Assembly: GCA_009760855.2 (NCBI GenBank)
Contig: WPIO01000154.1
Span: 1-64,000, forward strand
Source: Cristatella mucedo
Taxonomy: Eukaryota > Bryozoa > Phylactolaemata > Cristatellidae
Direction: 5' to 3'
Length of the DNA stretch: 64,000 nucleotides
In this document: positions 42,101 to 45,100 of the stretch, one piece after another
Numbering within the stretch: position 1 is the first letter of the stretch
How the letters are laid out: each line of letters starts with the position of its first letter
Made by a program: the position numbers and the translations under genes
The notes under the pieces: generated by a model
Told to the model about the DNA's origin: nothing
Seen by the model: the letters and a program-made list of their open reading frames with translations, nothing else
The model's database searches: none

Positions 42101-45100
42101 TTGTGCATAGAAATCATATCGGCAGGAGGATGTACATAAATGGCGAAAAGAAGTAAAAAAGTAAGCCCTGCATCTGGTCATGCTATCTTTATAATGCTGT
42201 AACTTGCCTGGAAAGAGATAAAGCTACCTAGGGGCGCTATACAAATATATTAGTAGTAGTAGTATAGCAGTAGTATAGTAGTAGTATTATCCATGGGATA
42301 CGACCAGTTTTAAGGGCTCGTTGGATGACAGTTGGCGTTAGCAACTACACTCCGAAATCTCAGACTAAGCTACGACCTACACCGCTTCGGCAGTGGCGAG
42401 TTATCTACCCGTTTGCTTTGTAACATTTAGTATGTTTACATGCTACATCGAATCCTCCCCTGCATTAGTACAGCAGAGCTACTTCGTTTCCAGGATTTGT
42501 ATGCTTCGAGTCCCGTTTTGATGGCGCCTTCTCAGGAATCGGATCTGACCTTCAAAGCCACAGAGGGTTATAGGCTTATAGGGTTATAGGCGTATAGACT
42601 TACAGGCGGTGATCCATAATGGCTCACTAGGTAAGGTGGTTGCTTTTCACGACCTCGCCCCGAGGCCATGGGTTCGAATCCTGTGGTGGGCGATCCTTTA
42701 TCGCCACTGCAAGTGGTGGTGATAGCCGCTAAGGATTTTCTGTCGCTATACAAAAATAGGCTGTTAAATCAGCTAGTATTTATTTATTTTATAGGCTTAT
42801 AGGCTTATAGCTTCTGCTCAGGTTCATACTTCAGCTCAAAAAAGGACTGTAAAGCACATCGCGGTAGACGTAATGAAAAGGTCGATGCAGCGAATAGATT
42901 CGAAGCATTTGCTACACTTTGAGACGCTATCTTTCATTTGCCATTCATACTGTCATTGCAATCGCCGAGTGCGCCCGAAAGCACCAAACCTGGCAGCTGT
43001 ACTCGAAGCTGGTACACCAAAATGCAATGAAGTAGGCGTGGCCTTCAAACTTCCATCTCCAGCTGAGTACCACCGTGGACGAGTTGAGCTTTCTTACCAC
43101 TATGTCGTCCACGGGCTTGACTGCAACGGCACATCGATTGGTGGCTGCACACGGCGACACGCAGCGACACCGCTCGGGCAGAGCACTGTTGTAGCGCATG
43201 CAGGACAAAGCAGTGCTCACCGGCATGCTCTGGGGGAATTGACAGCCTTCTAACGGTATGGTCATCGCCAGCACCTCCCGCTGTAGCTGGCCTAATGCTT
43301 ATCGTCACATTGCTGTCGGCACGATGACAGTGGCTGAAGTTCTGAGCACTTCCTGCGATCACGTACTCTTCTGGCGTCGATGTGGAACTGTGAACTACAA
43401 CCTAGAGTGATACAAACGCGTGTGAATTACAGGTGGGATGAACTGCTTTGTGACTTTACTTTTTTCTAGACAGAATTTGTGTTTATGTGGGCAATGCAGA
43501 TTGGCGACTTTCAGTCATTCGATGAGATTCTACAGCTGCTCGTGCGTTCATTTAGGCAGGTGGAGAACTTTGTTGACATTCACACCCAGTTTCCCTCATA
43601 ATCCCAGCAAAGACACTATAGCAAGAATTGGGAGACCAGCTAAAATCTATTAAAATATTGAACCTGGCAAGGTAATTCTACTCAGGACTTGGACCTAGTC
43701 ACGCTGCTGCGTAGTCAGCACTTCTGCTAGTATTTAATTACCTTCTCAGGAATGTGAGTCTAGGTCAGTGGTTCTCAGCCTTCCTAATGCCGCTACCCTT
43801 AGGTAAAGTTTCTCATGTTTTGGCCACCCCCGACCATAAAATTGTTGTTTGGCAATGAGGAAGTGCGTGTTTTCCGGTGGTCTTAGGCGACCCCCTGTGA
43901 AAGTGTCGTTCGACCCCCGTAGGGGTCGCGACCCACAGGTTGAGAACCGCTGGTCTAGGTAGAGTCCTCCAGTTCTGTTGGACCTTCCGACAGCACTTGA
44001 TATAATGTATCACTCAGTCCTTCTGGCGTGTACAACCGTTTCACCTTGATGTACCTCTTTCCAGTGCAATGCAGTGATTAGGCCCAACCCTAGCAGGAGA
44101 TTTCAGTGCAGTCCGCGGCCCCCTTTGAGACCATACCTACAGTTCCCATGGTTCCGAAACGTGGAACTCAATCTACATCAAGCCAACCATTTACTCGACG
44201 AAATTTAAAAGGAAGCTCGACATCCGCCATCTCTTTACAGCCATCGCCGCTTTCTTGCGAATTGTACTGTGCTTCTTACTCGAGAAACTGTCATTGCTAA
44301 TACTACTAGAGCTGTACCGACTAGTTAATTTTCGCTTTTTTTCTGCCGAATACAAGTAATTTAACATCTACCTATTCGGCTTAATACATGCAGTGTACAG
44401 AATAGATCTAAAGAAAAGATTAAAAATGTAAACTGTAAGCAAAATTTAATTTAATTTAACTTAATAAACTAAAATTAAGCAGTTATTGGCGAGTAATTTT
44501 GTGTCATTCACCAGCGAAATAAACCCGATATGTGTATTATGTTAATGAAAGAGCAACTTCAGTTCAGTCATTTTAGCACTCGCGTTTGAAGAAACAGCTG
44601 TCACGTCACCACCATTCGCATTTGGAAACACAACCACTATTATGCATAATACCGAATCGCTACTTGCCTCACTGCTCAGCCCCGAAGCGAAAGTTTGGAA
44701 CAGCCCTAATTATTACTGATCTGTTAATGTGCTTCATTTCCAGCATATTAAAAGTATCTAGATCTTTTGCAGCAAATGTAAAGTGCCTAGTAAGAGATTT
44801 AAGTTTCCTGACGGTGCTATGCAAATGTATTATTATTATTATAGAGATAAAATATTTGTATATATATAATTTTACAGAATATTCAGCTAAATTCTTGTAC
44901 ATGCATTCTATACAGGTAGATGTACGTATATATAAGGCCTGTATACCTTCACACGCATACCTACCTATACACAAAGATATTTACAGGAGCACAGCTTAAA
45001 CGTCTTGTTAGTAGCAGCCTAGGAGTTAAGATTGATATATATATATATATATATATATATATATATATATATATATATATATATATATATATATATATAT

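Follow-up and report, generated by a model that had tools for sequence, protein, structure and literature searches.

A SPIN-type non-autonomous hAT element and the relics of its family in an invertebrate genome

We analysed a window of 64,000 bp, the opening stretch of contig C60, from a genome assembly of 572 Mb (688 contigs). A short element in this window, bounded by inverted ends and by identical 8-mers, raises the question of which transposon family it belongs to, how that family came to be in its host and whether the insertion is young. The features that define the element are collected in Table 1.

Table 1. Positions of the element, its ends, its subterminal repeats and its flanking duplications in the window
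Feature	Position	Strand	Basis or remark
Left target-site duplication, GTCTAGGT	43758..43765	.	Read directly; boundary agrees with family alignment
SPIN-type hAT element of the Buster group, non-autonomous, 187 bp	43766..43952	+	Family-consensus orientation
5' terminal inverted repeat, CAGTGGTTCTCAGCCT	43766..43781	+	Family consensus form CAGTGGTTCTCAACCT
Subterminal stretch with CGACCC at 43888, 43911 and 43929 and GGGTCG at 43923	43888..43934	+	Direct reading
3' terminal inverted repeat, AGGTTGAGAACCGCTG	43937..43952	+	Read directly and from the consensus
Right target-site duplication, GTCTAGGT	43953..43960	.	Read directly and from the family alignment

The element and its copies across the genome

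The original prediction for this DNA described a SPIN-like hAT miniature element with inverted ends and an intact 8-bp duplication. Both ends and duplication are exactly where it placed them, with GTCTAGGT on either side and 187 bases between. A perfect 8-mer flanking a defined element on both sides is expected by chance in about 1 in 65,000 cases. The inverted ends are 16 bp long and carry two mismatches in the window copy and one in the family consensus. Taken alone, the 12-base end is unremarkable, because a scan of the whole window at up to two mismatches returns five matches where 5.2 are expected by chance; the sole matches with no mismatch or one are the two ends of the element itself, in inverted order. 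CGACCC and GGGTCG motifs occur seven times in the consensus against an expectation of 0.10, a count reached by none of 5000 single-base shuffles, and the window copy has four of them. Judged from the sequence, the CGACCC repeats are candidate transposase-binding motifs. The window element has no coding sequence.

The consensus, likewise 187 bp, is the majority sequence of 38 copies, a set that includes neither the window copy nor its partner, L010. As a query against its own genome, the 187-base element gave 1,992 first-look candidates, and the best 40 scored of these match at 84–100%; when the consensus served as the query, the best 40 scored were drawn from 2,336 first-look candidates, and the top copy is 96% identical to it. 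Counting copies, as the original prediction had proposed, shows that the family is large. At up to two mismatches, the genome contains 509 + 507 = 1,016 occurrences of a 25-base piece taken from the 3' end and 0 of the reversed control. This filter misses more worn ends, and 36 of the 40 scored copies pass it, those copies having been chosen for similarity. The same element boundaries are shared by this large family throughout the genome.

In the first sample, perfect 8-bp duplications flank 11 of 40 copies, or 10 of 39 independent insertions, since the window copy and L010 (on contig C307) represent a single insertion. A second sample was assembled with the interior disregarded. From the list of exact 3' ends, the leading 44 were taken and four that belonged to the first sample were removed; of the 40 copies left, one (L088) still duplicates a first-sample copy (L048). 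A 5' end is recognisable in 28 of these 40, and the other 12 were dropped from duplication scoring. Four of the 28 have perfect duplications, 12 have one mismatch and 12 have more, giving 16/28 with at most one mismatch. All 15 perfect duplications (14 independent insertions) carry TA at positions 4–5, as read by eye. According to a published study (PMC3499496), the Buster family contains Buster and SPIN, and TcBuster duplicates nnnTAnnn.

For four of the 40 copies (L019, L027, L029 and L033), the joined flanks match uninterrupted repeat DNA over the joint, as would be expected of paralogous empty sites. The duplications of these copies have 1, 1, 0 and 5 mismatches, respectively, and L033 is a poor case. 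For the joined flanks of the window copy itself, no empty-site match was found in the genome. The L029 copy is inserted in a relative of the non-LTR piece at 35.9–36.1 kb of the window.

That piece is part of a non-LTR retrotransposon fragment at 35704–37023, which has an RVT_1 match in Pfam. Further non-LTR fragments, recognised by eye from their resemblance to it or to each other, lie at 5010–5426, 11460–12212, 29087–29512, 31026–31481, 47229–47771 and 62097–62927. The window also contains simple repeats of CA (15823–16239, 417 bp), AT (45035–45191, 157 bp) and GCT (51556–51637, 82 bp). On the minus strand, an open frame at 32370–33209 has a membrane-spanning-looking stretch and a fibronectin type III match of 24.7 bits, against a Pfam cut-off of 25 bits; from its sequence it could perhaps be an exon of a surface receptor.

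Relation to SPIN

We compared the family with the presumed ends of mammalian SPIN, a sequence set down with the window copy already known and not independently of the consensus. The window copy is just 86% identical to what we take to be the SPIN ends over 78 bases on one side, and 94% over 86 on the other. Such values would suit a miniature element of a SPIN sister, for example OposCharlie or another hAT-Charlie family, rather than SPIN proper, and these families have similar tips. However, the 38-copy consensus agrees with the presumed SPIN ends at 80/81 bases on the 5' side and at 85/85 on the 3' side, in a comparison that covered SPIN, and we regard a sister family as quite improbable. Where the worn window copy departs from the presumed SPIN sequence, independent copies side with SPIN nearly always. 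In addition, what we take to be the SPIN interior, which is missing from the window copy, is found in four longer elements (L128, L129, L130 and L139). The identification as a SPIN-like hAT miniature element is supported: the duplication length, the TA-centred target, the inverted ends and the subterminal CGACCC repeats all fit, and some 166 of the 187 consensus bases, well beyond the tips, fall in stretches that agree with the presumed SPIN sequence.

Two 20-base primers for the mouse Ate1 locus are printed in a further study (PMC2767504). One of them falls within the element and matches the consensus at 18/20 bases; the other matches it over 15 contiguous bases of the tip. The latter primer tests the tips only, because it also fits the opposite inverted end. 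The mouse Ate1 primers would lie, on this evidence, in a SPIN-type element. The SPIN identity of the family rests on the presumed SPIN sequence together with these printed mouse primers. The family is placed in the Buster group by its target signature and by presumed Buster-like features, because the relic transposase pieces described below have no meaningful match in Pfam or the PDB. We conclude that the window element is very probably a new copy of the known SPIN family and that it likely belongs to the SPIN transfer network.

Outside the host genome, exact SPIN-type end patterns of 25, 19 and 19 bases gave 0 matches in the viral_contigs collection, and a 22-mer end gave 0 in genome_contigs. 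The sole match in genome_contigs was that of a 19-mer end in Cellulomonas timonensis (L145), which we judged to be due to chance given the size of the collection. The consensus has no match among plasmids and phages, and PADLOC found nothing.

Longer forms, age and history of the family

Of the 12 copies that lack the usual 5' half, three were traced further upstream, and these elements measure 327, 509 and 443 bp. Perfect duplications flank the 327- and 509-bp forms (GCCTAGAA and AACTAAAG), and that of the 443-bp form has one mismatch. The interior of the 443-bp form, as a genome query, gave 36 matches, and two of the eight loci taken extend far beyond it (L136 and L138). The element in L136 is complete in L139, where it measures 2,956 bp between both SPIN-type ends; no matching target-site duplication remains around L139. 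Forms with the same ends thus span 187, 327, 443, 509 and 2,956 bp in this genome, the autonomous form being present as relics only. On the opposite strand, L136 and L139 contain pieces that we take to be a ZBED5-like Buster transposase, broken by stops and frame changes. On either strand, the longest open pieces are 139 aa in L139, 192 aa in L140 and 123 aa in L141.

An 87-aa relic piece has six matches in the genome: itself, three at 64–74% identity, each with a stop, and two at 43–45% that are stop-free. We count the three closer matches as SPIN-type; one of them (L142) is a fragment, and its locus holds no SPIN-type end. The two stop-free frames (L143 and L144) lie in loci without SPIN-type ends and were set aside. 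Searched against Pfam and the PDB, the relic transposase pieces gave no meaningful match, the best PDB E-value being 0.0092 for an unrelated protein, CalpT10. No intact SPIN-type transposase copy was found among the best-scored genome candidates, and one may exist. The original prediction had expected an autonomous partner elsewhere in the genome. Relatives are indeed present, including one of 2,956 bp with the same ends, but those found are broken or fragmentary relics.

The genome also contains a young Ac/Hermes-type hAT (L049–L078, G000; 30 loci), which accounts for 63 of the 138 PF05699 matches, those with scores of at least 69 bits. In their best pieces, the 29 other loci share 98.96–99.89% identity with L054. 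The open frames extend to 642 aa, apart from a single listed frame of 1,947 aa; the closest solved relative is Hermes. Both this family and the SPIN-type family belong to the hAT superfamily (PF05699 in the Ac-type), whereas the Ac-type is recent and has long frames. We rejected it as a partner of the SPIN-type elements: its 30 loci of 3.2 kb (1.5 kb each side) contain no SPIN-type end pair, and its affinity is with Hermes. Two lone SPIN-type end matches, at two mismatches, occur in them (L051 and L075). Another hAT open frame, L087, was rejected as well: within 4 kb it shows no SPIN-type end at up to two mismatches, and a single isolated match at three.

The perfect duplication had been taken as an argument for a fairly young insertion, a claim that does not survive comparison with the rest of the family. 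Of 186 bases compared between the window copy and the consensus, 20 differ (10.8%; K2P 0.116). By the same measure, the 38 other copies, which were chosen for closeness to the window copy, differ by a median of 5.9%, and the second sample has a median K2P of 0.086 (range 0.056–0.135, n = 28). Even the best scored copy is 96% identical to the consensus. The window insertion is also present on C307 (64,036 bp; L002), in reverse orientation and with flanks that are 97.2% identical over 3.2 kb; the C307 copy is perhaps an allele on a second haplotype (perhaps uncollapsed) or a duplication. The perfect duplication is no proof of youth, because at 10.8% change per base, 16 bases should stay unchanged in about one-sixth of copies, and that of the window copy would be one such survivor. 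A recent, still mobile insertion would explain the perfect duplication directly, but given the divergence of the window copy, that of the best scored copy, the sharing of the insertion with C307 and the broken or fragmentary state of all SPIN-type transposase copies found, we consider it very improbable. The window element is old, one of about a thousand or more and otherwise an ordinary dead repeat with no apparent host function, and the SPIN-type family as a whole seems dead or immobile.

Taken together, it is very probable that internal deletion of a SPIN-type hAT gave rise to this non-autonomous element, that a relative of about 2.96 kb mobilised it in trans, and that the family entered its host (probably horizontally), amplified and decayed. 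The SPIN-type family would have arrived in this invertebrate lineage probably by horizontal transfer, which is suggested by non-coding sequence near-identical to presumed mammalian SPIN. The non-coding 187-bp derivative would have come from a full-length SPIN-type hAT. The transposase of the relative of about 2.96 kb, which has the same ends, may have moved this derivative in trans and may have bound the CGACCC repeats; cut-and-paste insertion into an 8-bp TA-centred target would have produced the duplication. The family would have grown to at least about a thousand copies, after which the transposase source would have been lost and the family would have decayed.

A different origin would be an ordinary, vertically inherited Buster-group hAT family whose resemblance to SPIN comes from conserved hAT ends. 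Further hAT lineages are present in the genome, and the age of the family, with its median K2P of 0.086 in 28 copies, needs no recent arrival. Nevertheless, the consensus resembles the presumed SPIN sequence over most of its length (about 166/187 bases) and the longer forms agree with it in the interior as well. Non-coding DNA would not stay 98–100% alike since the protostome/vertebrate split, an argument that rests on the presumed SPIN sequence and on the mouse primers. Vertical inheritance is, therefore, an improbable explanation, and we prefer the horizontal entry of a SPIN family.

The host and comparison with known systems

The assembly includes a mitochondrial contig, C688 (L084–L086; 21,008 bp, GC 44%). 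This mitochondrial DNA can be tied to the host because a 5.6-Mb contig with SPIN copies holds a mitochondrial DNA copy that is 96–97% identical to C688 (L080; C166:4374126-4377890). Read under codes 4, 5 and 9, the cox1 gene of C688 stays open for 517 codons, and no 250-codon frame exists under vertebrate code 2. We favour code 5 (invertebrate), since its readings fit conserved residues. C688 is enlarged by repeated blocks, including inverted copies, with a partly duplicated nad3. With genes named by eye, cox2 and nad2 are encoded opposite to the majority of genes, and the gene order includes nad1, P, nad6, cob, S2, T, nad4L, nad4, H and nad5. This order looks lophotrochozoan, and a molluscan or nemertean affinity was among the readings weighed.

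SPIN is reportedly on record in Lymnaea. Published reports describe SPIN in Rhodnius prolixus (PMC11614815) and count 385 SPIN elements for the painted turtle (PMC4054807). In the snail Biomphalaria glabrata, a SPIN-like hAT is reported at about 1,000 copies, with neither a recent invasion by DNA transposons nor any intact transposase (PMC5440852). In the literature searched, which is a part of the whole, no SPIN report in a further lophotrochozoan was found.

The present host is probably a new SPIN host. It is possible, if somewhat doubtful, that SPIN horizontally invaded an invertebrate phylum without a prior SPIN report and reached one to two thousand copies in it; if this is true, the tetrapod SPIN network extends well past blood-feeding bugs and freshwater snails. 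Each added SPIN host constrains how and when a DNA transposon crossed animal phyla. Since this genome has both short copies and full-length relics, the transposase could be placed in a SPIN tree and the invasion could be dated against host genes.

With the SPIN elements of tetrapods and Rhodnius, the family shares its hAT type, the existence of non-autonomous forms and, presumably, nearly all bases in the outer 81 and 85 bp of its consensus. It differs from them, presumably, in its 21-bp middle stretch, and also in its host and in that the window copy is worn. The SPIN-like hAT of B. glabrata, likened here by description, also has an invertebrate host and a similar copy number, whereas the genome studied here measures 572 Mb and has a cox1 that seems unlike that of a pulmonate snail. 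TcBuster of Tribolium, likened by target signature, has the same 8-bp nnnTAnnn target duplication according to the published study (PMC3499496) and, in contrast to the SPIN-type family, is active.
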